The notes under the pieces: generated by a model
What the model was told of the DNA's origin: nothing
Databases searched by the model: none
Seen by the model: the letters and a program-made list of their open reading frames with translations, nothing else
Part shown: piece after piece, positions 1-20,497 of the stretch
How positions within the stretch are numbered: position 1 is the first letter of the stretch
How the letters are laid out: each line of letters opens with the position of its first letter
Source: Paraglomus occultum
Lineage: Eukaryota > Glomeromycota > Glomeromycetes > Paraglomerales > Paraglomeraceae
Direction of reading: 5' to 3'
Length of the DNA stretch: 24,178 nt
NCBI GenBank assembly: GCA_910592205.1
Contig: CAJVPJ010000472.1
Coordinates: 1-24,178 of the forward strand
Program-made: the position numbers and the translations under genes

Positions 1-1229
1 CAGAAAAAGGATATTGTCAGACAAAAGTTGCAGAAGTTGTGCACCCGACTGTCCGGCTAAAAGTATAAGGGTGCTAATGCATGAAAATCATGTACAACAC
101 AAATGTTGCGGGGAGATTTGTGTTGTGTGTGTAACATAAAGATTGTAGCTGCGCGCCCCATTAGCTTCAAAAATTACGATTTACATACATCAATATGCGA
201 TAGTATTAAAAAAGATGTTTCAAACAATACAATGTCATTACCTAAGAGTTGCAACTTGTGATATCTGCACTTAGGTAAGTATATGGTAATGATCGAGGCA
301 GGAGTGTGCTATTCTTACGTTGTTGGTTGATCTGTCAATTAACACATTTTGGAAAGGGGTATAAAATTAAAAATGTAAAGTAACCAATAACGATAGAATA
401 TAATTGTTTACAAGGAGGCATATTTGATGGAAGAAAAGTTTTACCGAAGATACAAAGTTTATCAAATGATTGGCACGGACATCAAACACCGAAGGTTTAA
501 TTCTTTCGTAGAGAAGAAATTTAAAAAAACATTAAAGACTTTTTATATTTCTGTAATAAGCAAATTGTTAATAATCAATGATAAACGTCGATGACAAAGT
601 TGGAAATTTGATATTGACAACATTGTGTTAATATTTAAGTACATGTTATGGTTATCTACTATTTATCCGAACACCATTGCAATACACGCTTGATCGTTTT
701 TCAGATCTAATTGATTTTGTAGTATGCATTCAAATCTAGACTAACGTAATGCTTGCATTTTTTATTGGTGCCCATTATGCAGATCAATATCACGCGGGTT
801 TCGTGAGAATCTGGTTATCGCATAATCACTGCGAGAATATTAATATCACATTCCGATAGGCTCATCATTTGTATAATAACAAGTCTAGTATACGTAACCC
901 ATATTTTATTCACTGCCCTACTTTTGTAAAATCATACAACAAACGTTTCAGCATACTATTTGGTCTTATTGGTATTATATACTCTTTAATCTTGCAGCAT
1001 TGTACGTTTCCTACGACAACGCTACGTTAATGTACTTTCTCAACACATGTTAACTTCTATTATACACACCATATACTCGATATCACAATGATAACTCTTA
1101 CATTAATATTAAACTTATTACAATTTTAACTTAACTACGGTGAATATTTGAAAAATCTTAAAACAATTTTTTGTTTGACTGTTATTAGGACAGAAGAAAA
1201 AACTTATATAATTAAAAACAAACGAGCAA
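1..1229. other. intergenic, no gene recognised
   Basis: AT-rich DNA with stops in every frame and no convincing coding stretch. One small stem-loop can be seen: the 11-bp arm ACAACACAAAT at 94-104 is complemented at 116-126, with an 11-nt loop. The right end is the 3' flank of the HMG gene that starts the coding part of the window; no clear AATAAA signal was found there on the minus strand. CpG frequency looks normal for the window. Confidence 0.6.
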
Positions 1230-2288
1230 TTATTCGTTTGGAATTGGTAAAAAATCGACTAACTGTTCGTTCGTGTAGTAAAACAGCGGGGTTTTAAGCC
1301 AATCCGTGTTACTTTCTTTAAAAAATTGTTCACCAAAATAAACAGCCGACGTATCAATATTACCGTACAAAGAATAGCCAGAGCTGGACATATCGTCGAT
1401 ATTAGTTGCGTCACTGTTAGTAAAACCGTTGTTGCTATCGGAGTAAATGTTATCGTATGAAACTAGTTCATAATATCCATTTGATGGAGTCTCTTCGCAT
1501 ATTTGACTGTATCCAACAACATGGTTGTCTTCGTTTAACTGAAAAAATTTGCTCGACAAAGCCGATGCTTCAACGTGCATATATCCATTCAGTTGATCAG
1601 ATTCAATCAATTGAGCGTGGTCGTCCGAAATTGGAAGTTGTCTATATTCGATTGGTTGATCATAGTCAACAGGCTTACATTCGCTGAGTCGAAAATTTTC
1701 TTGTTTAATTTGCTCAACATAATTACTTGAAAAATATTCGATTGGATTTTGGTGCTGTTCATATTCGCTTTGTTGATCATAGCTGTCGAAACCGTGGAAT
1801 TGTTTGTCTATTTGAGAAGAGTTATTTCTTTGTTTCTCGGTTCTGTTGTTTTTATCAATTCCAAATCTATTTCTGTCCACTTCTTTAAATACCCAATTAT
1901 TTTTCTTTTTGCTTTGCTTTGGTCTTGGTCTGTAAATGTAGCCGGAATACGTTTCTTTATGACGAAGCAAAGCCACTTTAGCGAGTGCGTTGAAGTACTG
2001 TTTGACTAAAATTGGCTGACTTTTCCAATCTTTAGAAGCCATCCTAGAAATATCTTGAATGCTGTACGGATATTGAGTTCGTAACATGCTTGTAAAATTT
2101 GTGCGAAAAAGGATCCATGGATTAGACGGCCGGGGAGGCTTTAAATTTTTGTTACTACTTTGTCCACGTTTTGGATCAGTGAGAGAATCAGGAGGAATAG
2201 TGAGAGTATAAGGTGGATTACTTAGGAGACTGCGTTCAATTAAAGTAAGATCAGTAGAATAATGTAGAGTCTTTGAAGAGGTAGACAT
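1230..2288 (-). CDS. HMG-box (MATA_HMG-type) putative transcription factor, paralogue A
   Basis: Single-exon gene for 352 residues, probably a nuclear DNA-binding protein. The HMG box is at about residues 52-124: it opens with PRPSNPWILFRTNF, continues with an ISRMASKDW segment and ends at HKETYSGYIYRPR, the pattern of fungal mating-type HMG domains (MATA_HMG, sequence-specific minor-groove binding and bending). A basic run (PRPKQSKKKNN) follows and could be a nuclear localisation signal. The remaining 220 residues are low-complexity, rich in Tyr, Gln, Glu, Asn and Asp with recurring Y/E-Q-x motifs, and could be a disordered activation region. The start is the ATG at 2288. The frame is open seven codons further, but the first codon there is GTG. 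Starting at 2288 also aligns end to end with paralogue B (353 residues), both giving 13 residues up to the shared STD. Such HMG genes form a large family in Rhizophagus; a mating role for this copy is not shown. Confidence 0.86.
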   Translation of the reverse strand: MSTSSKTLHYSTDLTLIERSLLSNPPYTLTIPPDSLTDPKRGQSSNKNLKPPRPSNPWILFRTNFTSMLRTQYPYSIQDISRMASKDWKSQPILVKQYFNALAKVALLRHKETYSGYIYRPRPKQSKKKNNWVFKEVDRNRFGIDKNNRTEKQRNNSSQIDKQFHGFDSYDQQSEYEQHQNPIEYFSSNYVEQIKQENFRLSECKPVDYDQPIEYRQLPISDDHAQLIESDQLNGYMHVEASALSSKFFQLNEDNHVVGYSQICEETPSNGYYELVSYDNIYSDSNNGFTNSDATNIDDMSSSGYSLYGNIDTSAVYFGEQFFKESNTDWLKTPLFYYTNEQLVDFLPIPNE

Positions 2289-4621
2289 GGTATTTGAATA
2301 TAGAAGCACAACAATTTGGCTTATTAGTCGGTGTTATTAACGATAATTTATCAAAAATTTTTTGTTAAAAGTTTTTTTTTGATACTTTTTTTTTAGTAAA
2401 GTTGTCTTTACTTTCTTTATTTTTCACGATGCTTATATGTGTTTTTCTGGCGACACCCCTGAATGTATTCCATGTTTGACTATTGCTATATATATTTATT
2501 ATGAATGTGACAAGTACGCGATGTTATAATTGTTAGATATACTGTATTCCAGATAAAATAGCATATATATGTTTACCCAAAAAAGTAACTTTCCTTGAGA
2601 TGTAGCATTCATGTGACTTACGAAACGGGGAATACATTTAAATAGTAGGAAGCTTTTCTAGTTTGTTACTTTATTTGGAACATTCGATTCATAAATAACA
2701 TTGCGTTTTGCAAACTATAATATTTTAAAAAGTAGTCAGGTTTTTGTTTAATAAATTTGATTACTAAAATTTTAAGTAATTATATATAACTAAATTATTT
2801 ATTATACACCGAAGCATCAGGCATGTGAATATCGGATAAATTATTCGCCTAGATTATGTAATTTGACATGTAACACAAATCGATTTGAGTACTAAAATTC
2901 AAATATTTAAAGCATCGATAAATTGGTAGAACTTTACTAAAAGATAAAACAGATTTAGATGTATTAGCATTTTAGCAATAAATTATCGTTATTAGAGTCT
3001 TTGTTAACAATAATCGGGCCGAATATAATAAATGGCTTATGTTTTCTAAATATCAGAAAGGTTTGTTTAACAAATATGCAAAACGCTAGGAAAGTGCCGC
3101 ACTGTCGGTGTGTAAATTTTCCGCTTTGAGCATAGTTTATAAAACAAGTGCCAATGTTGTATATAAGAGACTATAAGTGACACTCATGTGAATGGTTTGT
3201 ATAACAAATTAAACCTTAAATTGTGCCAAAAATATACTTCAGATGGTTCATCGCATATCAACTTTTCCCGAGCATTTATGCACAGATCTTTCACAATTTT
3301 TGTACACTTTAAAATTTCAGTCTTCACGGAACTTCGCCCCTGCATACGTAATTATCTAAAAGTCGATAACTTCTGAATTAAGAAATGTACAGCTTATAAC
3401 GATAATTCGTCTTATACATTCCATTTTCCAATTTTTTCTTCCCACTTCCATTTTTAAGCACGAACAGAAATAAATAACTATGTCAAAACTTTCCCATTCC
3501 AAGAGCGAAAAAAAAAGATTATAGGCTTCTGCTAGTACTTCAACAAGTTAGCAGCTGGAAGTAAATATGAGGTCAACAGCCGGCAATACTGTATATTATC
3601 GACTTTTTTTCCGGAAAAAAAACTTTGGGATGTGCTCACCATTTCGATTTCTTTTTTGATGAGGAAGAAAATGGAACTTAAAGAACTTCTATAATTATCG
3701 GAATGGTTGACGAACGGGTACACAAGCCCATTTTTTATTACCTAAATCAGATATCCAAACCAAATTTAGACTATTGTTTGTTAAAACGTTACACATTGAA
3801 TAAGTTAATCAATTCGATCATCTAGACTATAAGTCACACGGTTTCTTATGTAACTAGGTGGTTAGTTTCTTATCTTCGGTGATGAGAACGTCCTAGTACT
3901 GAATTGAGTTATTGTTATGAAACCTAATTGTATACGTACCAATAAATGCAAACCGTAAAACAAATAAAGTAAAAATCTACGTCGATAGTAATGAACTAGA
4001 CCATATAGTATTAGGCACTGGTCTATTCTATTTTCGTTCATGTTAAACCCGCATGGGCACACAAGATATTCACCTGCTAAAAATAACGAAAAGGAGTCCA
4101 GTCCATTTGCCCGACAAAACTACTCATAAAAACTTTACGCAATGACAAAGTAGTAGACCCGACCGTGAGTCACCGTGAGTCTTTTTTGCAGCTTGTACTG
4201 CAATTATCGTGGTACGCAAAACTTTTCCTTGATTCCTACTCCAGTTGAGGTAATTGATAATGGTTATCATATCAATAGACCTCAAATCTAAAATAATTCT
4301 TGTAACAATTAACAAAACACTAAACAAACTCAACGATAAAAGAATTAGAATTCGATTAAGCATGTGCTATGGACGGGTAGAGCTATTTAACTTTGTGCTA
4401 CTGAAATTAGATGTAATGTTCGAATTTCCAACCTGACTGTATATGTAATACCGTATGTATTATAACTGCGGCAGTTATAATTTAATTCATAACGAGACTT
4501 TCAAACTTTACTTTGTTACTCAAAGAATGAGATATCTAACTCTAGTTCTGCAATAAATGTTTAAATAGCATTGATCAACATCCCCGCAAAATCAACGATC
4601 GACTTTAATACACACGGATTT
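2289..4621. other. intergenic, no gene recognised
   Basis: About 2.3 kb of AT-rich DNA. The longest open frames are 60-80 codons, lack family resemblance and overlap on both strands, so I treat them as chance. A near-perfect stem-loop lies at 4459-4481: ATTATAACTGC and its complement separated by one G. CpG frequency is normal. No tRNA or other RNA gene was recognised by eye. Confidence 0.55.
2334..2400 (-). promoter_or_regulatory. A-rich leader/promoter-proximal tracts of HMG gene A
   Basis: On the sense (minus) strand the 45-110 bases before the ATG carry several A tracts (runs of 5 to 9 A). Paralogue B has a similar but longer A-rich stretch before its start. Poly(dA:dT) tracts commonly exclude nucleosomes at fungal promoters; a promoter role here is inference from position only. 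Confidence 0.3.
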
Positions 4622-4742
4622 CATGGGATCCGTTTATTTCCCCGATAACAAATAATAACTTTCCCGACAATTATTTCCGGGGAATAAACTGTTGGAAAAG
4701 TGAGCTGTCGGGAAAGTTATTATCGGGTAATGAACCAGACCC
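4622..4742. mobile_element. short inverted-repeat (MITE-like) element
   Basis: Two arms face each other. The inner cores are 4641-4669 and 4706-4727: the left reads CCCGATA, seven extra bases, then ATAACTTTCCCGACA; the right arm is the exact complement without the extra bases. Weaker complementarity extends the arms outward to about 4625 and 4742. A second inverted pair (TTTATTTCCCC near 4633 and GGGGAATAAA near 4679) lies inside. GATTT occurs just outside both ends (4617-4621 and 4743-4747) and may be a 5-bp target duplication, but the match is short. No coding capacity. Best read as a small non-autonomous DNA transposon of unknown superfamily, or otherwise a plain foldback repeat. Confidence 0.5.
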
Positions 4743-6019
4743 GATTTAATGCATAATTAGACTTCTGTCGCAAGACAATTCAGTATTATAACTGATTTGT
4801 TCGAGCAAATGCAATTTTTAAACCCTCTCAAACGTCAGTGGGTGAAAAAAATATATTGTTTATGCATCAACACATTGTTTGCTGGGTTCAGATGTCATTC
4901 ATTAAAAAGGATCATATCTAAATGCAAAACGACGCTATTACTCTCAATGGTTTTAAAATGTGGTTCAAAAATTTAGTTAAATTCTGATAGAGGAGTTTTT
5001 TCGGAGACTCGTAGCTGTAGCGTAGCGGCTTTACGGTGCGTTTTAGTGTGAAAAGTTAGTTAATACTCGTAACGTCAATTAAAGCTTATTGTATTTTTAG
5101 TGCACATAGAACAGTCGTCTCATTGTCTAACATAAATATAATGATTGAATACTACATAAGCGGTTTATCAGTTCGCCGTATTGATTATCCACTCAATTCT
5201 AATCGTTTTTTTTTGTAAAAAAAATTGGTTTCCAATTTTCGTAATAAGCGATACAGATAAGTTCAGCATAAGTATAAACAGTGTATTAATTGGAAGAGAA
5301 AGATTTGCAAGTTACTCATCGGTAACGTTGACAATTGTTTTACTGATAGTCATTTCACTAAGGTGTTCAACTTTGTTTATTCTTCGCCACAGCCAAACTT
5401 GTCATGACTGACGTTATTACGTTAACATGGCTTGAAACGCTTATCGTGAAATAGCTGTCAGTGAAATGTCAATAGCTTAACCTGTCTGTGAAGTAATTAT
5501 GATACAGACCCGTGACAATGACAACATGCATATAAAACATGATAAGCAATCGTATAATAATGCTTACCAATTAACTCGTACCAAATAGTTATTTTATACT
5601 AATGACTTGTTTTTTATCGAAAGCTGCTTGAAGTTTTTCTTCATAATGCAGAGAAATTTACCTGCTTTACTAACATTTGCTGCTCTAACACTTAGCATGT
5701 TTTACTCTTATTTGTTTTACGTAGAGCGGTATTTTTGCACCAAATAAACATCTTCTTTGCTTTTGCTTGTTTCCTTATAATTGTTTTCACAACAAGTTGC
5801 GATATTTTGTGTGAAAATTTAACCATTATCCATATTTTAGAATTCACTTCTTTGATGCGTCTAGTCGACAAAAGACTATCCGTCGGCAGAATGAAATGCG
5901 TTTAATCTTGAATTTTTTCGGCAATTATTCGATGCCAACATGTTATGTTAATTAAAGAATAAATCACATAATGATGCACTGCGTGATACTGTATATCTAA
6001 TCCACTTTGCTGTTACGTA
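4743..6019. other. intergenic, no gene recognised
   Basis: AT-rich, CpG-normal DNA with no open frame beyond 76 codons and none resembling a known protein. It contains a short palindrome around 5221-5239 (AAAATTGG, TTT, CCAATTTT) next to T and A homopolymer runs. Nothing else is supportable. Confidence 0.55.
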
Positions 6020-6079
6020 CAGTAAGGAGCATAAGTATCCGACCGCTCCTAGCTTGGGACAGGAACAAGTAAACACTTG
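6020..6079 (+). repeat. left terminal inverted repeat of the 682-bp MITE
   Basis: About 60 bp, matching the complement of 6641-6701 with a single substitution. Preceded by the TA at 6018-6019. Confidence 0.88.
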
Positions 6080-6640
6080 AAAATTTTCGTACATAAAGTG
6101 CATAACAAACCAGTTTTCAAACATTCAATATTTGCATCTAAAACATATAAAAAACATATAAAACCATATTAATATAAAAACCGCACATTGTTTATTTCGA
6201 CATAAACTTCAGAAATCAATATCTCCACATGTTCTAATCGATTTGCATAATTTTTTTTTGTTTTGTTTGTTAAATCAATCTCTGCGTTTTTCTTGAGATG
6301 CATGGTTGAATTAGAAAAAAATTGTTATTGTACTTGGCAACAAACGCGCGTACTATTTATAAATATCATCATGTCGTATGATTATTTGCTTTTTGTAATA
6401 GCAATCATACAGTAATTTTTAATAAAATTGGGTAAGCGCATTTTTAATAGTACATAAAAATAAAATAAAAGAATTACAAAATTAAGTTAGAAAAGTGTCG
6501 AGATAGGAATTTCCGAATTCTTATGATCAAAATCGCGAGATATATCTAGGTAAAAACTTCAGTGTTTGGAAAATTTTCCGGAGACATCCGATCGGGCTGA
6601 AATTTTACAGGTAATCATGGTCTGTTATGTACTTTATTTT

Positions 6641-6701
6641 CAAAGTGTTTACTTGTTCCTGTCCCAAGCTAGGAGCGGTCGGATACTTATGCTCCCTACT
6701 G
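6641..6701 (-). repeat. right terminal inverted repeat of the 682-bp MITE
   Basis: Complement of the left arm with one substitution and one inserted T near the inner edge. Followed by the TA at 6702-6703. Confidence 0.88.
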
Positions 6702-7066
6702 TACAGAAGTGTTTGAAGAAGACAGTTAGCAACAAGCGTATGCACGATAGAAATTAACGTTTGTTGGAGAATAATCTAAATATTATCCAACGTGCTACAC
6801 AGCGGCGTATTTCCTTTTTTTAATGGTCGGACAGACAAATTTCGATAAAGAATGAAATGTTACACGTCGGACAATTCCTGATTATCTATTATCCTATTGA
6901 TATCTCAAGTGTGACACACACAAATTACATGCATTTGATCCCACAGTATGATTGGTTCATGTCGTTCAATGTATCACGTCACAATAAAATATAGCATAAA
7001 CGATGCGTGGATCTAGTTTTTGCAAACCGCAAAGTACTGATTAAATACCTTCACTTCTGTACCGAC
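6702..7066 (+). promoter_or_regulatory. upstream region of the RING/TPR gene
   Basis: 365 bp between the MITE and the first ATG of the TPR gene. It must hold the promoter and 5' leader if the two-exon model is right. No TATA box or specific operator could be assigned. CpG frequency is normal here (for example around 6743-6868 and 7028-7064), unlike the gene body downstream. The MITE ends only 365 bp from the start codon, so it could influence expression; this is inference. Confidence 0.35.
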
Positions 7067-10000
7067 ATGGATAATGCATATTCACCGTCACCAGACAGCT
7101 GGGTAAGCTTCATCAACTATGTTTCTTCAAGATGACTTTCACAGAATAAATTAAGCAATGCCTATTCTTACATATTACAACCCGATTCAATATTAATATT
7201 GTCTTGATAGGAATTTGGACAACCATCATCCTCAAATACCAGCAAGAAAGGGAAACAAGCGCAGGTTGATAGTGCAGAAACTGAAGATGTCATTGGAGAC
7301 CTCATTGTCTTTGAAAGTGATAGTGATGACAATAATGATGATGACTTCAAAGATTCTAGAGAAACATTTGCTGCAGCAAATCTGAGCAATGCTGAATTAA
7401 ATGAACAGCTATCTGCAACTTTGGAATCGATTACCAACAGCAGTGACAGGGTCAGCCATCTTATTAAATTATCCAATCTGTTGCAATTATTTGGTAACAG
7501 GCTAGAGGGTAATCAGCTGAAAAATGTTTTGAAAACTATTGGAATTACTGTTGAATATAATGTCTATGAAGTGACTGCTGATGTTGAATTGGAACTACAC
7601 CTTAGAGCACATGCATTAGCTTTAGAAACATATGGCAGACGACTTGTTAAGATGGATAAGGAATTAATTGAAACTTTGCAGAAAAATCTTATAAAGTTGT
7701 ATGACTTCCACCAAGGTTATAGCAAAGTCATAGAAAGAGACTTGCAATGTCCAGAGATTTTAAGTGCCACTTTGGAGGGAAGTGCTAAAGTTCAAAATTA
7801 TAACAATGATTTTTTACTTATGCATCTTTATAATACTCTTCATGTGATGGGCAATGATAAGACAGCTTGGCTTGAAATTATAAATCAACTGAAGACTTTT
7901 TTTGCTGCACTAGTTGAGGCTTTACCTGTTATGGCTGGTATTATGACAGTTGTAGAGACACCAATTGATAATGAAGCCACTATTGAAATATATAATAATA
8001 TTCAAAAGGCTTTACAATCCAAGTTTTCTGTGGGACATTGGTACAAAGAATGGAGGTATTTGTATACAATTTACCAAGCATTTGTTGAATGGTCAGCTGC
8101 TCCAATTCATAAAAGTTTGGTTGCTAAAGGGGAGTTGATACTTATTAAGGATCTATGGAGATTTGGAGATCAAGAGTGGAATAAAGCCATTTTAGCAAAA
8201 TCAGAAACTGGATATAATAAGAAACCTAAATTAAAAGTCATGTCAGATCATATCTCAGGATCAGTTCCATACTCATTGTTGTTTGGTATACTGGATATTG
8301 CCCAAAGTCTAATAATATCTACAGAAAATACTAATACTTTGGCCCATTGTTACTATCTTGCAAAACTATCTCTGGATATGGTGAATATAGAATTTATTCA
8401 ATTTAAAGCAATGGAAGTTCTAATGACACTGCATAAACAAGATCCAATCACATTTTCTGTGGTGCAAGTTGATCTGGACCAACATGCTGAAACTTTGAAT
8501 GAAGACAAGAAAAGGCTTCAAGACATGAGAAGATATATTGATAAAAAGTATACTCATCTTAATCAAGCAAGTAGTAGAACAAATATTGAAATGCCAAACA
8601 CAAGGCAGGAAGCAGATAATAATCTAGAGCAACCATTTGAAGAACTTCTTAATTCAAATTCAAATGATTTATTAATCTTAGATATGGTTGCTGATCATCT
8701 GACATGTCAATTTACCCAAGAAGTTACTGATGATTTTAGAATACTTCCATGCAAGCACAAAATCAGCTATTTGGCATTAGAAACATTCATGAGGCTAAAC
8801 CATAATGAAATGAATTGTTTTTATTGTAAGAGAAAATTTCAATTGGAGGATACTGAGAAAATGCCAAGCTCACCAATTTACAAGGCACTGTATGAGAAAT
8901 TTGTCAAGGCTGGACATATTAATATTACACCAAAAGATTTTACAACTATTGTGGCAAGTCAGGATGATGATGATGATGATGTTGAGGAATCTTCTATTAT
9001 AAAATCAAAGTTTTTATGTATGCTTAAAATGAAACCAAGAAAAACAATTTTACAAAGAATGAAAAGACCAAAAGGCTTACATCCTACATACAGGCAAGGC
9101 AAGAGAGCCCTTGATGAAAAAAGATATGATGATGCAATATTATGGTTGGAAAGAGCACTTATTCATTACCCCAACAGCACAACTATTCAAACAGATCTTG
9201 CTGTTGCATATATGGAAAGTTTAAACTATCAAAAATGTTATGATTTAGATTACCTTACTAAAGCCATCAAAAATAATCCAAACAATGCTAGAACATGGGC
9301 ACAACGTGGACAATGTTATATGCAGCAAGCAGAATACAAACAAGCTCTGAAGGATCTTAAACAATCATTAAAGATTGATGCAAATGATGTACTTGCATTA
9401 GAAGTCAGGGGTAATATTTATTACATTCTTACATGGTATGAGCTAGCATTGGCTGATTTGAATCAACTACTAGAGATTGAACCAGATAACATAACTGCAT
9501 TGGGAATAAGAGGAAAAATTTATTCCATACTTGAAGAGACTGATAATGCATTAAGAGATTTTGACCAATTACTGAAGATTGAGCCAAATGACACAATAAC
9601 ACTAAAAGCAAGGCTTGGAATTTATATTAAATTTTGTCAATATGAAGATGCATTAAAAGATCTCAACAAATTAATATTAATACAAAACAAATCAACTGAT
9701 ATAATGGAACAATATTTAATATTAAGAGGATATGTTTATCTTATGCTTGACCAATGTGACCATGCATTGTCTGATCTTGATAAATTGTTAGGAACAGATC
9801 CAAGTTGCTTATTTATTATATTAAAGGAAAATGGAGATAACAGCTTTGATGAGAATGCATTGAGAAATTTGCATAAATTTTTAAATGTTGAACCTAACAA
9901 TGTGTCTGCATTGAGAGTAAGAGGAAATATCTATTATGCTCTCAAGCTATATACTAAAGCATTAGCTAATTTTAACAAGTTGCTAGAAATTCAACCAGAA

Positions 10001-10201
10001 AATAATGCAAATATATTGTACAGAAGAGCAACCATTTATCTTAAAATTTGTGAGTATAAGAAAGCACTGGATGACATTAATGAGCTCTTGAAGATCAAAC
10101 CAAATGGAACTCTTTCCAGACAGTTGTCATCTTTGTTTGATCAATTGGAAGCAGAAAATGAATGTTTATTATCATATATTAATATCAATATTAGATTTTA
10201 G
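7067..10201 (+). CDS. RING/U-box-like and tetratricopeptide repeat (TPR) protein, 2 exons, 1008 aa
   Basis: Model: join(7067-7102, 7211-10201). Exon 1 encodes MDNAYSPSPDSW. The intron 7103-7210 (108 nt) starts GTAAGC, ends TTGATAG, has TATTAATAT as a possible branch region and is phase 0. Without it the main frame has no ATG near its start: codon 7421 is TTG, and the frame is open back to the TAG that forms the acceptor. Order in the protein: Ser/Lys and acidic N-terminus (residues 13-70); an unrecognised, mostly helical region (80-460); a RING/U-box-like finger (504-580) with C511, C526-x-H528 and C548-x2-C551; a run of Asp near 597-603; then ten TPRs (about 637-982), the eighth degenerate. 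TPRs bind proteins; the finger suggests an E2-binding/ubiquitin role, unproven because several usual zinc ligands are absent. No signal peptide or membrane segment, so probably cytosolic. Exon 2 has only four CpG in 3 kb. Confidence 0.87.
7103..7210 (+). other. spliceosomal intron 1 of the RING/TPR gene
   Basis: GTAAGC donor and TAG acceptor; phase 0; 108 nt. The acceptor AG is part of the in-frame TAG (7208-7210) that would otherwise end the open frame. This intron roughly marks the left edge of the CpG-poor block. Confidence 0.8.
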
Positions 10202-12160
10202 GGAACATTGTATTGGAGATGTGGGAGCTAAAATGTTGACAAAATAAAAAATTTAAAATTAAATTTCTCCACTTTCTATTTCTCCACTTTTTCTCTAAAT
10301 CTCCAGTCCAATCAAATTGGAGCTACAGAAGCAACAGCTTTTGCAAAAGCTCTAGAATCAAATTCTTTCTAACTTCTTTGAATCTTCTGAATAATCATAT
10401 TGGAGATACAGGGGCAACAGCTTTAGCCAAGGCTCTAAAATCAAATTCTTTTTTGACTTTATTGGTTCTTTGGGATAATCAAATTGGAGATACAGGAGTG
10501 ACTGCTTTGGCAGAAGCTCTGGAATCAAATTCATCTTTGACTTCTTTGGTTCTTTGGAATAATCAAATTGAAGATACAGGAGCAACAGCTTTGGCAAAGG
10601 CTCTTAAATCAAATTCAACTCTGATTTCTTTAAATCTTATGAATACTCAAATAGGAGATACAGGAGCAACAGCTTTTGGCCAAGGCTCTAAATTAAATTT
10701 TTTTCTGACTTCATTATATTTAAATGATAATAAGATTGGAGATACAGGAGCAACATCTTTGGCAAAAGCTCTAGAATTAAATTCTTCTCTGACTTCTTTG
10801 AATCTTAGATATAATCAATTAGACATACTGGAGCAACAGCTTTGGCAAAGGCTCTAGAATCAAATTCAACTTTGACTTTTTTGAACCTCTGGTCTAATCA
10901 AATTGGATATATAGGCGCAACAGCTTTAGCAAAGACTCTAGAGTCAAATTCATCTCTAACTGATTTGAACCTTCAAAATAATCAAATTGGGTATATTAAT
11001 ATATATATAGTAACAGCAGCACGGCTTTGGCAAAAGCTCTAGAATTAAATTCAACTCTGACTTTTTTGGATCTCCAGTATTAGTATAACCAAATTGGAGC
11101 TACAGGAGCAACAGCTTTGGCAAAAGCTCTAGAATCAAATTCAACTCTGACTTCTTTAAATTTACAGGAGAATCAAATTGGAGTTACAGGAGCAATGGCT
11201 TTGGCAAAGGCTCTAGACTCAAATTCAACTCTGACTTCTTTAAATTTATAGGAGAATCAAATTGGAGTTACAGGAGCAACAGCTTTGGCAAAGGCTCTAA
11301 ATATAAATTCCTCATTGGCTTTTTTGAATCTTAGATATAATGAAATTGGAGGTACTAGGAGCAACAACTTTGGCAAAGGCTCTAGAATCAAATTCAACTC
11401 TGACTTCTTTAGATCTTCAGGATAATCAAATTGGAGATACAGGAGCAACAGCTTTGGCAAAGGCTCTAGAATCAAATTCTTTTCTGACTTCTTTGAATAT
11501 TAGATATAATCAAATTGGAGATATGGGAGCAACAGCTTGGCAAAGGGTTTAGAATCAAATTCAACTCTGACTTCTTTAGATCTTCTGGGCAATCAAATTG
11601 GATATATAGGAGCAACAGCTTTGGCAAAGGCTCTAGAATCAAATTCAACTCTGACTTCTTTAGATCTTTGGAATAATCAGATTGAAGATACAGGAGCAAC
11701 AGCTTTGGCAAGGGGTCTAGAATCGAATTCTTCTCTGACTTCCTTGAATCTTAGATATAATCAAATTGGAGATATGGGAGCAACAGCTTTGGCAAGGGTT
11801 CTAGCATCAAATTCAACTCTGTCTTTTTTGGCTCTTCAGGATAATCAAATTGGAGATACAGGAGCAAAAGCTTTGACAAAGGCTTTAGCTTCAAATTCTT
11901 CTCTGACTTCTTATTCTTTGGATCTTTGGAATAATCAAGTTGGGAATCAAGTTGGAAATACAAAAGCAAAGCAAAGACTCTAGTACTAGAATCAAATTCA
12001 ACATCTGACTTCTATTGGACTTTTGAATAATCAAATTGGAGATACAGTGTTTACTTTGGCAAAGGCTCCAGAATCAAATTCGACTCTGACTTCTTTGAAT
12101 TCTCAGAATAATTCTGTTGGAAGAACAAACAATACAACAGCAAGTTTCAGAAATTGAAAA
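10202..12160 (+). pseudogene. degenerate leucine-rich-repeat (RNI/NLRC3-like) array
   Basis: About two dozen 28-residue LRR units with consensus L-x-L-x-x-N-Q-I-G-D-T-G-A-T-A-L-A-K-A-L-E-S-N-S-x-L-T-S, the ribonuclease-inhibitor type that forms a protein-binding solenoid. It is not one gene now. Frame changes (-1) fall near 10360-10399, 10811-10830 and 11535-11545, and a +1 near 11355; a 23-bp insertion lies near 10990-11020; in-frame TAG stops are at 11081-11083 and 11249-11251. The longest clean stretches are 10378-10857 and 11537-11983 and have no proper ATG start. The first remnant (HCIGDVGAKMLTK, 10206-10244) begins right after the TPR gene stop, in another frame, so the array may once have been the C-terminus of that protein or a separate gene. 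Similar LRR proteins are numerous in Rhizophagus (recalled, not checked). Confidence 0.82.
10316..12125 (+). repeat. 84-bp tandem repeat array (LRR units)
   Basis: Taking the ATTGGA that encodes the I-G of each LRR as anchor, units start at about 10316, 10399, 10483, 10567, 10651, 10735, 10818, 10902, 10986, 11093, 11177, 11261, 11345, 11430, 11514, 11597, 11681, 11765, 11849, 11939/11951, 12035 and 12116. Spacing is 84 bp except at the indels. Units 11093-11345 are nearly identical in DNA, pointing to recent unequal exchange. A 12-bp duplication (AATCAAGTTGGG/A) lies at 11934-11957. Confidence 0.9.
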
Positions 12161-13636
12161 ATTTTAAGATGCTTTGCTCCTATTGGGTGAGGAAGTGCCA
12201 AAACATATTATATTGAAAAGACTTTTTTGAGAATAATAATAATGTCTCAGATATATGTTATTTTCTCAATGATTCAATGTAGGAAGATTCTATTATCTAT
12301 CTAAAAAAAAACTTATTAGAGACTTTCAACATGTCATTTAAAGTCAGGGGAAATTAAAATGTCCAATGGACTGTAACAGTAATGCATACAAAGTTTGTGG
12401 TGCCAGACTTGTTAATTCATTGAAATTTGCTGATAATTATCAAGACAGTTGATTCACTTCACTAACACCCATAAATAATATTTTGAGGTTGATTATAAAC
12501 CTCAAATTTTATCAATGGTAATAGTATTTATGATAATTTGGCACTTAGTATTAGTATTAGTTAAAAGATGCTTTATGGGGAAAATTTCTTTTTCAGTATT
12601 TTATTTATGTTGTCATGTTTAAAACTTTTTTTATCACTATCTCTACATCAATACCTTGACAACAAGAGTTTGTTATACTAATACTAAACATAACAATTAG
12701 TGCTCTAACTAATTTAAATCTAAATAAAGGATATCATTGTTACTCATTATCATTATTTGCACTCCATGTCATATTGATACCACTATATGATCTTTGGCAA
12801 GTCATGAATAGTCATTCTCAATTTATATCAGTCTGTTTATAACTCTAAATTTGATGATAATTTCAACTGGACAACATATTATGTCAATCAATATAACCAT
12901 CATGTTGATGTTTAAACATCAACCCATCCCTATTTCAGGAGGGGTACTTGGTAGAGGTGCCAGAGTTCTCTCAATAATCTTTTTTGAGTTGCTATTCCAC
13001 TATAGAGTCTACCATCTGTGTATAATGGCATCATGCTTATGCTGACTCTTATCAACTCTTGGTTCAATTTTATACACATTACATCTGTAACATGCAAAAT
13101 TCCAATCCTATAAACACTGAAATAATCTTTGAAACTCTTTATAGTGTCAGTTCTTACTATTACTATTGGAAGATGGATCTGGTAATTGGGATGCTGAGCT
13201 TTGTAGTAATAGTAGGTGATGACAAGCAGGTCCCAATAGAGATTTTGTGTCAATAAGCCAGTGTCATCAACACAACATCATTAAAGTTACCCTTCAGCAG
13301 AAGTCACAAATCAAGGCAATGGAGGAATAAAGCTAAATAGTACTGATACATTGCATTGCACCCACAAGCTGTATCTTTATTTTATCATATCACATTTGCA
13401 ATAGTCTCATGACATAGACAACACATCAGACTCATTTCTTGTAATGTAGCCAGGAAATTTGTAGATCAATTCTAGATAATCTGCAGGCTTCATAAATCAG
13501 AAATTCTTACAAGTCTGAGTGGCAGTGACTTTGAGAATGAATTGATTGGCTACCAAGAATAACTGACACTTACATATCTTTGCTTTGGTAAAGTGTTACT
13601 TGCATATATTAATATCATTATTTGTATGATTGAAAT
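12161..13636. other. CpG-free spacer, no intact gene
   Basis: About 1.5 kb without one CpG that I could find. The longest open frame is 107 codons on the minus strand (12930-13253, first codon ATG). It is Tyr/Ile-rich and not recognised, and it stays open a few codons upstream (reading DDTGLLTQNLYWDLL), so it could be a remnant of a decayed gene or transposon. A perfect 20-bp palindrome GTTGATGTTTAAACATCAAC lies at 12904-12923. An imperfectly placed inverted pair (TTAGTATTAGTAT at 12545 and its complement at 12675) is also present. Function unknown. Confidence 0.5.
12904..12923. repeat. perfect 20-bp palindrome
   Basis: GTTGATGTTT followed directly by its complement AAACATCAAC, no loop. It could bind a dimeric protein or extrude as a cruciform, or be chance; it sits in the CpG-free spacer with no gene beside it. 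Confidence 0.6.
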
Positions 13637-14683
13637 TTCGGCTTTTGATCAAACTATGAACAACATACAATTTTCACGTGTAACATAATATTGTCACTAG
13701 TACTAGGAACAATCAGAATATCGAACGGCATAATGTCATCATCTCAAGCAGGGAGAATGTAGCATTACGTATGCCCATTGTTGGCTATCGGTTAACAATT
13801 TAATACAGCAACTTGAGACAGGTATTGTACGTATATATATAAATAGTTCTTCGCAAAGGGGGATGTATGACAATGTGTGTAACATCTGGTCACTCAGGAG
13901 AAGTTTCTCCAAAAAATTAAGGTCGCACACGGATGTCAAATGCCGAAGCATAACTCTCCATACAGTGCAACAAAGAAACTTTGAATGACACATAACCAAG
14001 TCAAAGTTGAGAAAGAAGTTTAGATTTGAAATAAGCGATTTGATTGTGTCTGAACATGAAATATTAATATTATAGCATTTAATCAGTGGGGGTTTTGGTC
14101 GACAAGGAAGTTAACGAGAAATTTTGCAATGTGGTACAGGTTTAATTACGTGAGTAAGAGAACAATATTAAGCGCCAGGTAAATGCGTTGAGCAAATGTA
14201 GGGTTAGAATCCATTCATCTTATGTAGTATTTGGCGCAGGAGCCAATCTCATCCTGCAAGCCATACGTTTTCATGCAGATTTGTTTATCGCTGAGATAAT
14301 TTTCCACTGTGTCAAAACTTTCACACACTCAGAGGACGTTATCTTATTCCGGATTGGCTTTCGTAAACAATATGCATAATTTTGCGGACATGTTTGATTT
14401 ATTAACATGTATGCTCAACGTCATGCGTTAATTATACTCAAATCTTGAGTCAATGAAAAACTAAGCAAATGGGATTGATGTAAGTATAAAGACAAAGTTA
14501 GTAGAAATTTGAATTAGCTTACTCTATCGTTATTGAAGAGAGATAGAACAAAAAGAAGTTATGTGTTTAATAAATAGCCGGTTAACGAGCACTTTTCGTT
14601 CAACCAGCCGACTAGTTAGATGAAATGACAGATCCTCAGGCGAGTCTGCGCCGATTTTGTAGTAAAAACATGGCAAGTTGTTG
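13637..14683. other. intergenic, normal CpG, no gene recognised
   Basis: CpG returns abruptly at 13637 and stays at roughly 30 per kb. Open frames up to 86 codons occur on both strands without resemblance to known proteins. The right part is the 3' flank of HMG gene B; an out-of-phase minus frame (14530-14778) overlaps its end and is treated as chance. Confidence 0.5.
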
Positions 14684-15745
14684 TTAAATGAAAATGTCGT
14701 AGTATTCGTTATTGTGCATGTCATATTCGCCATTGTGCAAACCAATCTCATCCAATAAGTGCTGCTGCTCATTAACATATACTAATTTATAATACTCATT
14801 TGATAGAGCACATCGGTTTCTTTGATCGTATTCGTTGTATTGGAAAGGTTCACCCGATAGAATACATCCATCGAATTCATTAATGTATTCACATCCGTTC
14901 AGCTGATCGCGTTCAAGCGAATGACCGTAATCACTTTGAGCATATTCGATAAAACGAACGAATTCGTTCGATGGAAAGTGTATATCCAAAGCCGGAAGTT
15001 GTTCATATTTGTTCAGGTTCTCCAGTAGAACATATTTGCCAGACGTTTGGTTTTCATGTCCATTCTGTTGAACGTAGTCACTTGATAGAGCATATGCGCT
15101 AGGCGCTTGAGGGTGTTCATATTCATTCCGTTGGACATAGTTACTTAATAGCGTATATTTGTCTAAAGTTTGGAGTTGCTCATATTGGTTGCTGACATTT
15201 AATTGAGTATAATCATCCAAAGTTTGAAGTTTATCTGGTTGAGTAGAGTTATCCATCTGCTTCCCGGCCTCTTCTTGCTTATTATTATTATCAATTTCAC
15301 GTTCAATAAATTTAGCTCTGTTTACTTCTTTAAAGGTCCAATTCTTTTTTTTGTTCTGCTTCATTCTGTTTGGTTTGTAAATGTAACCCAAATAAGTTTT
15401 TTTGTGACGTTGTAAAGCCAATTTAGCAAGGATATCAAAGTATTTTTTGACTAAAATTGGCAGACTATTCCATTCCATGGAAGCCAGCCTGGAAACGTCT
15501 TGAACTTTGTATAAAGCATTAGGGTATTGCGAGCGTAATCTGCTCGCAAAATTTGTGCGAAAAATAATCCAAGAATTGGAGGGCCGGGGAAACTTCGAAT
15601 TTTGGTTTTCGTTTTGCCTACGGCCTGGATTAGTAAGAGAGTTGAGCGACATACTGAGAGCATAAGGCGGATTATCTAAAAGATTGCGTTCATGAGAAGT
15701 AAGGGTATCTGTAGAATGACATAGAGGTGTTGGAAAAATGAGCAT
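14684..15745 (-). CDS. HMG-box (MATA_HMG-type) putative transcription factor, paralogue B
   Basis: Single exon, 353 residues, ATG at 15745. The HMG box (about residues 53-126) opens PRPSNSWIIFRTNF and ends HKKTYLGYIYKP; about two thirds of the box is identical to paralogue A by eye, with a three-residue insertion in the first loop (QYPNALYKVQDVSR against QYPYSIQDISR). A basic segment (NRMKQNKKKN) follows, a likely nuclear localisation signal. The tail from about residue 155 has irregular repeats of about 10-20 residues around Y-E-Q-L/P, L-x-x-Y and S-N/D-Y-V-Q, rich in Gln, Tyr, Asn, Glu; it shares DQLNG and FQ[YL]NE islands with A, so the two genes are homologous over their whole length. Same orientation as A, 12.4 kb apart. 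Expected to bind DNA in the nucleus; target genes and any mating function are unknown. Confidence 0.88.
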   Translation of the reverse strand: MLIFPTPLCHSTDTLTSHERNLLDNPPYALSMSLNSLTNPGRRQNENQNSKFPRPSNSWIIFRTNFASRLRSQYPNALYKVQDVSRLASMEWNSLPILVKKYFDILAKLALQRHKKTYLGYIYKPNRMKQNKKKNWTFKEVNRAKFIEREIDNNNKQEEAGKQMDNSTQPDKLQTLDDYTQLNVSNQYEQLQTLDKYTLLSNYVQRNEYEHPQAPSAYALSSDYVQQNGHENQTSGKYVLLENLNKYEQLPALDIHFPSNEFVRFIEYAQSDYGHSLERDQLNGCEYINEFDGCILSGEPFQYNEYDQRNRCALSNEYYKLVYVNEQQHLLDEIGLHNGEYDMHNNEYYDIFI

Positions 15746-15754
15746 ACTAGTTGA

Positions 15755-15880
15755 ATTCTTTTTTTTAAAATGAGGTGTAATCTTTGTCTATTATAATAAC
15801 AATAAGTTTTTGTTGGAAATGGTTTTCTATTTTTCTTTTTATTTTTTTGTAATTTTATTTTTATTTTTCTTTCGTAAGTC
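15755..15880 (-). promoter_or_regulatory. A-rich leader/promoter-proximal tract of HMG gene B
   Basis: The sense strand before the ATG is dominated by A runs (complement of T-rich 15759-15767 and 15821-15872). This parallels the A-rich leader of paralogue A. Promoter role inferred from position. Confidence 0.3.
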
Positions 15881-18800
15881 TTCTCTCCTAAAACTTGCTT
15901 ATATATCTTTTAATCCGCAGCTTAAGTCCGCTATCACCGATGGCGTTTATGTACGGGACAATAAAAACTACTCCTGATGCAATAAACACCCCCGATGTCT
16001 CCCTTCAATTGATATTTATTTGTGTTCTCCTTATAACAATTTAATATGATGCAGCATTTAATATAATGTACAGACAAATATTACTCTATCTTTTTATCAC
16101 AAGTGTAAAAGTAAAATAATTTTTGGGCCCATTTACTCAAGTCGAGTATTTATTACTGCGCTTTTATTATAACTTGTTATTACACAGCTTAGAAAGTTAA
16201 AATAGTTACTGATACATTCGGCTCGTTTGACTTCTTTCCGGGATTTTAAAAAAACGTAATAACTGTCAGGGCGGATGCTGAAATCGGCTGATGCTGATAA
16301 GAAAAGATTTGTCAACTAACATTGTCCGTTGATGCTAACTGTCTCGTGTAATTGCGAGTTTTAGCGTTCCTAATATAAGTGCGTTTTGCACATCATATAC
16401 TGCTTCGTTGAATAATTGTAAGACTATGTAAATATGTATTATGTAAAAGTATGTTTAATTAGCCAACTTTTGGATTGATAAATACAAAAACGCGAAAAAC
16501 AAAGATAATTATAAAGTTAATTTTAATTTACGGAAAATACCAAGTTTAAAATTAGCAGTGTGTGTTGTGTGTGACACAAACGTTATCGCCAACTACATGA
16601 ACAACGAAAATGTCGCAAATTAAAGCTATGCCTAAAATTTGATTATGAATAGCCAAGGTATTTTATTCGTATTATATCACATTAGCTTTATTTTGAAACA
16701 CTATTTTAATTTGCATGCTTCATAAATTGAAATTATTTTCTACCAAATAAAATGTTACGAGTACAACTTGACAGTAAAAGTTTTGCTTGATTATAACAAT
16801 CTGTTCTCCACCTAAGTGTTAAATATTATCAATGTGCGCAAACAAACTGTTTTCCTTTGCAAACAAGTTCCAATAAGAAACAAATTATATCTAATAGTCA
16901 GAAGATAAGATCACTTGGACGCTCAATAATAACTAGAGAATATACTTATTTGTCTTCTGTAAGTATTATTGTGAGGCATATCAAATTGTTAATTAAATTT
17001 TATTAAAGCCTATTTTTTTTGTTTAATATGTAATATTTAATCAAAGAGGATGATTTGTTAATAAGTAAAGCAATTGCACGATTCAAATTCATTTCATGTT
17101 TGAGACAATCTATTTTAATATACGCCATATCGACTTCTTTTGGTTGGTTGAATTATATGTAGGGGTACGTTCGCTGTGTTACTCCCGATAATGTACATGT
17201 ATCAGATGTTTGATTTTTCAGAAAAATGTGACCGAGCGAGAAGAATAAACTAGTTAAATATACGTTATTTCCACTCATTAAAAACTTGTCTTACAAAGTA
17301 TTACCCCTTATTGCATAGTATTGCCACTAGGGGTATTGCAGATTACTGTTGCCAAAAAATCCCGTCTTGTTGAGTCTACGAACGCAATTTTTACATACTG
17401 ATCGCACATTTGTCTCAGCAGTTGGATTGAGAGTGTGGCCGAACCAACTTATTTAGTTCGAAACTATCTCAGCTCATAGTTTTGAATTGCTACAGTCTGT
17501 TTGGAATACCGAATGGAACATACGTCGATTGCAAAATTACTAATTTTTTTTTATGATAGGCTTAAAATTGTCTACCCTTTTATCAAATACAACACGTCAT
17601 TATTATTTTCTAATTATTAAATTGCTGCAACGTCAAAAATTCTTTCTAGACCTTTATAGCTTATGAAGGTTGACCGTACGTCATAAATTCAACAAAATGA
17701 CATTTTGCATATTTACTCATATTTGCGTCAACGTTAACTGTCTGTAAAAAAACGAGTTAATTTGCTTAATTTAAGAACGGAATTGGCTATTCTAAAATAA
17801 AACTTTTACCTTAAAAGAAAGTGCATATTTGCTTGTCTTCTTTACGTATATTTTATTACTATTATGGCTTTTTACGATTATTCTAATAGACAAATAACTA
17901 TTACAACTAGTTAATAATATGTATTACAAAAGTATTACCGTCTTATTTTTGACTATAAACATGTTATCGGACGTGTTGTCCTGGCTCATTAACAAACGAA
18001 CATTTTTCGCAATTAATGTCTTAATTGGGGTTTATTCTATAAGTAACTAATGCATATTTACGCATAAAGAGGGGTTAAAACTTGCTATACTAAAACTTGA
18101 ATGAACCCACTTTGGTTTTGGAGGTGCAACAATTTAAATTCAGTTTATTTTTAGCATCGCTTAAATACCACATACTCTTCTTGCTCAAACGCTGTTTGGG
18201 TTGCTAAAAATAGCGACTGAATTGCTTCAGATATTTTAACGTATATATAGAGATCGCAAAAATAAAACTAGTATCACAATAATGAGGATATCGATATGAC
18301 GTGTGTAATGTTAGTACCGTATATAGAAAAATAGGGGTATGGGTATGTAAGATTAACAAACGCCCCCTATTTCGGCCAAGCAAAGTCTTATATCCAGCGG
18401 TGTTTTTGCATGCGGCGTAGTATTAAAGTGACAATAGATTATGGATTTTGTGATCGACTAGCTGCATATATGCCCCTGTAAGCATCAATTGAGTTTAGGA
18501 GCAAATGTAATTTATATAAGAACCCTTAACAGACGATCCGATTGTTATATCTGCGAGGATCTGAATCGATACAAAAACTGTAGTCAAATACTTTATCTAT
18601 GTGTCGGCACATTGTACTAGAATATGTTTCTAATAAAATATACACGCCATAATTAAAAGTTTACGATTGGTATCATTATAACGATAAAAAAAGCATATTA
18701 CAGTCAAGCATTGATATAGTAAAGTTGACGGAATGGGGTTTTTCTTCACTATATTGAGAAATTTACTATATATTAAAAGTTTTTAATATAATAAAGTTTA

Positions 18801-19077
18801 TATGTAAGTGACATAATCTTCTATATCGCGGCTGGCCAATCTTACAGTAATAAGATCTCTTGATTCGGTCATTATTTTATTATAGCAGTTTTCAAAATTA
18901 TAGAAACCTCTGAAATTTACACACACGAAGTCACTTGACTGCGAAAATTTTCGAAAACTCAATAAACTTCTGCGATTCTTCGCCGGCAATCAATACTTTA
19001 CAGCTTCCTGTACAGTTTCAGTTACTCTTTTGGTACGTACGAGCAGTCCTAGTGCTAGTTTTTATAGAGAAGAGGTT
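15881..19077. other. intergenic, no gene recognised
   Basis: About 3.2 kb, AT-rich, CpG-normal, with only short chance frames. Two foldbacks were noted: 18137-18156 pairs with 18202-18223 (about 20 bp with a two-base bulge, loop about 45 nt), and TATATTAAAA/TTTTAATATA at 18769-18790 with a 2-nt loop. No RNA gene or transposon ends were recognised. Confidence 0.5.
18137..18223. repeat. foldback inverted repeat
   Basis: Left arm AATTCAGTTTATTTTTAGCA (18137-18156). The right arm, read on the minus strand from 18223, is AATTCAGT, CG, then C/TTATTTTTAGCA-like, so the arms match except for two extra bases and one substitution. Could be a very short MITE relic or a structured transcript; no target duplication was found. 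Confidence 0.4.
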
Positions 19078-19174
19078 TTCGATTACTGGCGATTACTTGC
19101 GATTACTGGGCGATTACTGAGCGTTTACTTGCGATTATTGACAATTGCTGGGCGTTACTGGACGATTACAGGCG
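19078..19174. repeat. short minisatellite, GCGATTACTGG-type units
   Basis: Nine or so degenerate units of 10-11 bp around GCGATTACTGG/GCGATTACTT follow one another, decaying to the right (GCGATTATTGA, CAATTGCTGG, GCGTTACTGG, ACGATTACAG). The rest of the region has no such periodicity. Likely replication slippage; no function visible. Confidence 0.7.
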
Positions 19175-20497
19175 AATGCTAACGAAAGTTGTTGTCATTT
19201 AGCTATTGTATGGGGACAACATGATTTACGTTGAAGGATAGTTTATCTCCATTACGAAGGCTTTTCTCGTAAACGGATTTGCCGTTAATTGTATGTTAGT
19301 CGGGCCACAGTTTGAACGTTAGGAAATCCCTTCAAGAGATGCGTGGACGTAGAAAGATTCATGATCGTAACCATATGGCATCACTCGGAAAAAGGTTTGT
19401 CTGTTACAACTAAGAAATAGAAAAATCTTTCTTGTAGTTACATAAAGCCGCTATGGAAAGGAATAGATTGCTTCGCAGTTCCTTTATCACTAAAATTGGA
19501 GAATCATATTCACCCCTTACTTTTGAGGATGTAATAAACTTTTTCAAAACACGCGTTTACATACGTGTGATTATAATGACATTGGTCTGTATTACTGGTG
19601 TAATCATCTGTTCCATACTGAATTTACACAGTAATTGCCATCGATTGATATCATCCAACTTCGACATTTGTTCTAGCGGGATAACTATCCACAAGAATCC
19701 TAAACCATTGTGCTCAAGCTTGTTTGCATATTTATGAACAACATCAAATCAAATGTTTTTTCTTGCAAATAAATTGCATTAATATTAATATGCCATCAGT
19801 CGCAATCACAAACAGTATAAATATCAGCGTCAGTGTCAAATAACAAATGTATTTCAGAATAAGGAGACTGACGAGTCAGGAAAGGTAACCTAGTCAGGAA
19901 GAACGCTGACATTAATTCCTATCAATTACGAATATATTTTTTTCGACAGGCTTTTTACATTCTGTATCGGTCAGATTTACGCTTTTCAAACTGGTTGCTG
20001 TTTGAAGCAGGTAAACAATGATGTAATCAACAAGGGACACCAGTCTCAGTTCATTAATACGATTATGAATGAGGTGAGGTGGATTTGTGGAACACGTTAT
20101 TTCATAGTGAACGAACCACTTTGAATTAAAGCGATACGATAAAATTCGCTACCGGCCAGAAAATATATATAAAAAGCGAATGTCAAGTGAGAAAATTAAG
20201 GTTCAAACGTCTTAATATTAAGGCATTAGGCACTTCGCATCAAATTCTTTAAATAAATTGTAATTTTAAAAGACTGTGTACATAACGACGGGTCTTGGCA
20301 CCCAGGCGTAACACCGACCAGTAGACAATTGGCTGAGCAAAACCAAAAATTGTTATCTTATAATTACCGCTAAATCTCCCTTACTATGACTCCTAATTCG
20401 ATTCTAAACTTTGGGATGATGTATGTAGACCGCCAGCGATAAGAACTCTATAGTAATAAGTAATAGTTTTACTTTCCTTCTCGAGACGTGATACCTA
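19175..20497. other. intergenic, one small open frame of doubtful status
   Basis: Between the minisatellite and the kinase gene. It includes the 94-codon frame listed separately and the 3' flank of the kinase gene (from 20497 leftwards). Nothing else is supportable. Confidence 0.45.
19453..19737 (+). CDS. doubtful small ORF with one membrane segment, 94 aa
   Basis: ATG-started frame of 94 codons. Residues 35-57 form a hydrophobic stretch (VYIRVIIMTLVCITGVII) long enough to span a membrane, preceded by a charged N-terminus and followed by a Cys/Ser-rich tail. I do not recognise it. It stands alone, with no homologue in the window and no supporting splice or promoter signal. In AT-rich DNA a frame of this length by chance is plausible; it could also be an exon of a larger gene. 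Confidence 0.18.
   Translation: MERNRLLRSSFITKIGESYSPLTFEDVINFFKTRVYIRVIIMTLVCITGVIICSILNLHSNCHRLISSNFDICSSGITIHKNPKPLCSSLFAYL

Follow-up and report, generated by a model that had tools for sequence, protein, structure and literature searches.

In invertebrates, gene-body methylation is mosaic: the methylated bodies are low in CpG, their promoters are normal and the genes remain under selection, and in animals it falls mostly on housekeeping genes, with moderate CpG loss. Repeat-induced point mutation (RIP) in Dikarya acts on repeats, changes C to T and kills genes, favouring CpA or, in some lineages, TCG. According to a 2026 review (PMC13297926), fungi have, with some exceptions, largely lost gene-body methylation, possibly because the mutations it causes cost more than the mark is worth. 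In Rhizophagus irregularis, 18% of genes are highly CG-methylated, unlike in other fungi, and these genes are mostly transposon-related or without a known domain (PMC8647823). Here we describe a gene of Paraglomus occultum whose body has lost nearly all of its CpG. It encodes TPR repeats followed by LRR repeats (the TPR-LRR gene) and lies in a CpG-poor block of 6.4 kb within the window, by which we mean the whole 24,178-nt stretch that was analysed (contig CAJVPJ010000472.1). We consider it highly probable that persistent, inherited CG methylation over the TPR-LRR gene body left this block as its mutational footprint, with deamination following and the protein kept under selection.

The block (7211-13636, 6426 bp) contains eight CpG, an observed/expected ratio (o/e) of 0.05, compared with 1.21 (236 CpG) in the left flank (1-7210) and 1.13 (355 CpG) in the right (13637-24178). 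Base composition predicts 172 CpG for the block (Poisson P ~3e-62), and flank density predicts 214. An earlier note on this DNA had estimated by eye about 8 CpG in 6.4 kb and about 24 in the following 0.78 kb; the exact counts are 8 and, for the 784 bp right after the block, 25. The window's six longest CpG-free gaps (1665 to 212 bp) all fall within the block, and one of them extends up to its right edge, while the longest gap outside it is 186 bp. A two-state model, which assigns no strand, places the CpG-low segment at 7089..13616, and the DNA is CpG-free on to the next CpG at 13639, where a flank with normal CpG counts begins (13639..14420). The abrupt right edge that had been put at 13637 was thus confirmed, while the left edge, put at 7211, moves about 120 bp further left to 7089, shortly past the start codon at 7067.

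At the same time, TG+CA is raised, at 145.1 per kb in 7067-13636 versus 122.4 and 128.8 in the flanks. GpC is not low in the block (o/e 1.33) and CAG+CTG is not reduced (27.2 per kb versus 18.4 and 20.2); the loss is therefore confined to CpG. CpG-specific depletion of the block is a real and strong feature. The outcomes that the earlier note had named as counting against deamination, an o/e near that of the flanks or no TG+CA excess, did not arise, since the block differs from its flanks in o/e and TG+CA is raised.

The same state recurs throughout the gene family. From the assembly (32.3 Mb, 1408 contigs) we fetched the best 30 of 109 TPR matches listed and the best 30 of 63 LRR matches listed; once merged, these 60 loci (L009-L068) amount to 37 places across 34 contigs, counting that of the window itself. 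All 60 of these fetched loci contain a CpG-low segment (o/e 0.00-0.19), which answers the earlier note's question whether other members of the TPR/LRR families are CpG-poor; 54 of them also hold a CpG-normal segment and six are low throughout. As a control, the best 8 of 76 HMG matches were fetched, and all eight were normal throughout, with no low segment. Among ten 150-bp genome probes on arbitrarily picked contigs, nine were normal and one leaned low (log ratio 3.3), and ten 120-bp probes of distant TPR genes gave eight normal, one leaning low (C152) and one undecided (C1352). Because distant TPR probes are mostly normal, as are the multi-copy HMG loci, the low state cannot be put down to TPR coding alone or to copy number alone. 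Nor is the LRR array sufficient as sole cause: L019, a TPR copy whose frame ends without LRR, is low as well. Assembly chimerism was rejected, given that the pattern recurs on 34 contigs. The probe on C152 (C152:20300-20419, L082) has no CpG in its 120 bp and is possibly a further low-state gene.

LRR and TPR units have a biased composition, and the codon usage or amino-acid bias of such proteins could in principle deplete CpG. However, the spacer downstream of the gene is as CpG-low as the coding part, eight of the ten distant TPR probes are normal, and the 5' parts of several family frames are CpG-normal. This explanation is contradicted by the spacer and was rejected; we give it hardly any credence.

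The borders of the low segments have the shape of genes. In all 16 start-anchored copies (the window's and 15 paralogs), the 5' edge falls between -80 and +916 bp from the ATG (median +138), and in 200-bp bins anchored at the start, o/e is 0.96-1.20 upstream and 0.00-0.16 from +800 on. Loci without a 5' end were excluded from this measurement; L016, where no exon 1 was found, is outside the set, L015 and L041 coincide and are represented by L041, and the start codon of L020, whose 5' end differs, is a guess. One TPR-LRR copy (L013, on C426) lacks intron 1 and keeps its CpG to +428, and is perhaps a retrocopy.

For LRR genes, 17 loci were examined for borders: nine had both block ends and a matching frame, six were cut at the 5' side, L063 is broken at the border region and L048 is a TPR-LRR copy. 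In the nine, the LRR-bearing frame and the low block start no more than 142 bp apart, and the block ends 73-591 bp past the stop of the frame, or 73-768 bp when seven loci showing only the 3' border are added. Two of the nine are LRR copies on C157 (C157:30092-31389 (+) and C157:7671-8968 (-); L058, L059) that have the same scores and CpG profiles mirroring each other; either a large stretch was duplicated in inverted orientation or the assembly is at fault.

A border of another kind is seen in the six fetched kinase-LRR genes (L052, L053, L057, L058, L061, L063), all of which have the edge 100-240 bp before the DFG motif, mostly on or close to the C-lobe exon boundary. In each of the six, o/e is 0.70-1.44 in the 440 bp upstream and 0.16-0.31 in 400 bp of the C-lobe. 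Considering that the C-lobe exon is CpG-poor and the upstream kinase part normal in all six, one could propose, tentatively and with more doubt than confidence, that the LRR/TPR module carries a methylation signal of its own and imposes it on any gene to which it is fused. If so, a whole receptor-like repertoire would have been kept gene-body methylated over long evolutionary times, its mutational cost paid until CG was nearly gone, and the function of the mark would outlive its substrate.

Taken gene by gene, then, the borders track gene bodies and spare the promoter, with the window's spacer overshooting, and the low segments match single genes; a low domain independent of single genes, as a repeat-compartment island would be, was not found. 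The earlier note had read the block as a chromatin domain, and perhaps a silenced or repeat-compartment island, between two HMG genes. The domain reading is unsupported, because the unit is the gene body and recurs at every fetched family locus across 34 contigs; the HMG neighbours seem incidental. The island reading is likewise not supported as it was stated, as the segments match single genes and selection on the proteins persists.

The route of CpG loss can be followed in alignments of the copies, where the labels low and normal (here and in the codon tests below) were taken from the edges of the start-anchored copies. Where L012-L014 are CpG-normal, their CG sites were compared with close low copies: 2.8% were kept and 67.6% were TG or CA (71 comparisons, 15 sites). 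The same comparison for control dinucleotides gave 45.8% kept and 31.9% transitions for GC (144 comparisons), 44.4% and 38.9% for CC (54), and 62.4% and 17.1% for GG (205). Loss occurred in all four NCG contexts, and no single context was preferred.

A RIP-like process that mutates the CG of duplicated genes in bursts would suit a multi-copy family in which loss is near complete. On the other hand, the classic indices do not indicate RIP (TA/AT 0.72, substrate index 1.82), a CpA-to-TpA signature was not found, and none of the NCG contexts is preferred. Moreover, the low state continues for 1.5 kb in DNA that has no close copies, and HMG genes, multi-copy too with 76 matches, are nevertheless normal in the eight fetched loci. 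Most copies also keep long frames: 12 of the 16 start-anchored ones have frames of 877-1299 aa, and dN/dS against the window copy is about 0.3 (see more below). Stops inside the match were found in 7 of the 30 best TPR rows and in none of the other 23, so the inactivation by stops expected of RIP is not seen. We rejected classic RIP on its indices, contexts and the intact frames, and a RIP-like process in the wider sense is highly improbable.

Selection on the proteins is visible in several ways. Pairwise dN/dS between the window copy and 14 others ranges from 0.24 to 0.40 (14/14). In alignment columns where some copy has CG, NCG went to CA by 21:6 (21/27) and NNC-G went to TG by 29:6 (29/35), the test giving P 2e-6; CA at NCG and TG at NNC-G are the synonymous choice each time. 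Taking the normal parts as reference, CpG is retained to 17% at CGN, as opposed to 4.5% and 2.5% at the two remaining positions. Surviving CpG is enriched at CGN arginine codons compared with the normal parts of the same genes (P 3e-6), with five window frames (P 2e-4) and on unique alignment columns (P 0.010), the P-values of these codon tests being rough because the copies are related. L067, with its short frame, was excluded from the codon tests. Private changes (nonsynonymous and synonymous, 42 and 43 in the window copy, 13 and 5 in L041) are biased by the choice of codons that do not vary among the other copies, and no conclusion is based on them. CpG was thus lost mainly via synonymous routes, with the proteins under purifying selection; it is this selection that accounts for the losses retained being mainly synonymous and for the leftover CG being enriched at arginine CGN.

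These signs also bear on a silencing of the transposon type, in which the genes of a repeat compartment would be a silent, decaying reservoir. The family is repeat-rich and multi-copy, the stops in 7 of the 30 best TPR rows fit such decay, and so does the broken LRR part of the window copy. However, edges that track gene starts between normal flanks, together with the protein selection visible in dN/dS and in the routes of CpG loss, argue against it; they rule out a long death of the family, though not conditional silence. All in all, we regard a silent reservoir as unlikely, if well worth keeping in mind.

Candidate machinery for maintaining CG methylation was found in the assembly. The minus strand of C166 (20780-17388) has exon-wise domain matches to RFD, BAH, BAH and C5-methylase in sequence, which we take to be the domain order of DNMT1, and C244:5154-5663 encodes an SRA domain (domain match). 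A maintenance system of the DNMT1/UHRF1 type is predicted to be encoded, going by these domain matches. A stretch of C127 (C127:17875-20551) gives weaker RFD, BAH and C5-methylase matches, with in-frame stops in RFD and BAH that could be introns or decay, and possibly represents a second DNMT1-like gene.

Some contigs of the assembly are probably endobacterial. Kinase matches with TGA as their sole in-frame stops were seen at C393:4399-5169 (L070), C393:19172, C1222:8440, C16:47839, C662:5127, C970:11608 and C877:9987. In L070, the one that was read, the TGA stops stand at usual Trp positions, which points to an endobacterium with genetic code 4, and the stretch has o/e 0.70; the contigs probably belong to a Mollicutes-type endobacterium with eukaryote-like kinases. 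An endobacterium or another CpG-poor donor might be thought to have contributed the block as foreign DNA, considering its sharp edges and the code-4 sequence in the assembly. Against this, several genes cross the edge within one exon, where the CG on the normal side is TG or CA in paralogs; the gene has an intron and has relatives in Rhizophagus clarus and Glomus cerebriforme; and the endobacterial L070 itself has the o/e of 0.70 given above. A foreign or endobacterial origin is contradicted by edges inside exons and was rejected, with only the slimmest chance left to it.

Under the reading that we prefer, inherited gene-body CG methylation, a DNMT1/UHRF1-type system would keep CG methylated in the nuclei that are inherited, over a stretch that begins near the 5' end of the gene and finishes some hundred bases beyond its end. 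Within this stretch 5-methylcytosine would deaminate, CG becoming TG or CA until it was nearly exhausted, while the promoter and first exon, being unmethylated, would retain CG. Methylation as the agent, and its persistence today, are what we infer from these patterns. Methylation and deamination, which the earlier note had named as the likely cause, are well supported, though indirectly, by the TG/CA replacement, the codon tests and the encoded machinery.

Several observations weigh against this reading. The gain in TG+CA (16-23 per kb) is smaller than the loss of CpG (~32 per kb), and G+C in the block is not clearly lower (0.328, versus 0.329 and 0.345 in the flanks). Including divergent copies weakens the contrast between CG (2.3% kept, 37.4% single transitions; 724 comparisons) and its controls (GC 22.6% kept and 24.2% transitions, 1031; CC 18.2% and 31.9%, 495), and a comparison of normal stretches with one another finds CG conserved in only 15.0% (307). 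The low state of the window continues ~1.5 kb beyond LRR homology, whereas in the 16 other LRR loci that allowed the measurement it reaches +73 to +768 bp beyond the stop. Moreover, the window copy is probably broken at its 3' end, in the LRR part, because its TPR frame ends at 10201 and the LRR part, which reaches to ~12112, is open in pieces only. Finally, the available part of PMC8647823 makes no mention of LRR, and most of the highly methylated genes it reports are transposon-related or have no known domain.

In the window, the TPR-LRR gene lies on the plus strand. Exon 1 (7067..7102) runs from the ATG at 7067 to a donor GT at 7103 and is where the CpG-normal side ends; intron 1 (7103..7210, 108 bp) ends in AG. 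Such a short ATG exon and AG-ending intron are common to most start-anchored paralogs, L013 and L020 being exceptions. Exon 2 (7211..10201) is an open frame of 996 codons with four CpG and encodes a conserved N-terminal region, which includes a Cys/His cluster, followed by TPR repeats. One surviving CpG (9305..9306, plus strand) lies in a CGT arginine codon, in the Arg-Gly of a TPR, and is CG in 10 of 13 low-state copies. The LRR array (10202..12112, four CpG) is open piecewise in different frames. The earlier note had seen here an intact 3-kb exon and a decayed LRR array; the exon is indeed open, but the two are not separate entities, because in other members (L010, L011, L013, L021, L022) TPR continues into LRR repeats in the same frame, and both therefore belong to one TPR-LRR gene.

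The downstream spacer (12113..13638, no strand) has no CpG, and a genome search with it, which ignores very common words, gave one weak 100-bp match elsewhere and otherwise none. CpG-normal HMG-box genes stand on the minus strand to the left (1230..2333) and right (14684..15787, convergent with the TPR-LRR gene); the two flank the block in the same orientation with frames of equal length (367 aa). A kinase gene at 20498-21193 is in CpG-normal DNA (o/e 0.64-1.24 in 500-bp bins). A Pfam search with the small minus-strand frames 12933-13277 and 13742-14110 gave no family, and the Cys/His region, compared with solved structures, gave two matches, neither significant (best E 0.51). The near-full-length relatives that carry an organism name come from Rhizophagus clarus (three) and Glomus cerebriforme (one) at 26-27% identity, which by itself would make the source probably a glomeromycotan (arbuscular mycorrhizal) fungus of a different lineage. 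A viral_contigs search for relatives returned ten stretches fitting the pattern, none of them a relative.

CpG-depleted gene bodies in these fungi were not described in the titles and abstract openings, of mostly open-access literature, that were searched. Term searches of the available text of PMC8647823 found no occurrence of 'deamination', 'depletion' or 'leucine', and those of PMC8298701 and PMC10234402, likewise in their available parts, found nothing on CpG loss or LRR genes. What the TPR-LRR genes appear to offer is a fungal family that has paid the mutational cost of gene-body methylation almost fully, with CG nearly gone and the proteins still selected. If the methylation reading is correct, sequence alone suffices to reveal an inherited gene-body mark, and a simple screen of CpG o/e would pick out genes of this kind in any related assembly; it would also raise the question of what role a CG mark plays once CG is almost exhausted.

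Compared with known systems, the TPR-LRR family has neither the CpA nor the TCG signature of RIP in Dikarya. It resembles invertebrate gene-body methylation, as generally described, in its low bodies, its normal promoters and the selection on its genes, and differs from it in being a multi-copy repeat-protein family with near-total CpG loss. It is also comparable to R. irregularis, for which PMC8647823 reports gene-body CG methylation in a glomeromycotan, with sites either highly or weakly methylated and a DNMT1-related enzyme detected; there 5-methylcytosine was measured, whereas here a mutational footprint is seen in one gene family. Gene-body CG methylation in a glomeromycotan is therefore already known, and what is new is a single repeat-protein family with nearly complete CpG loss, its borders placed at gene starts or within kinase-LRR genes.

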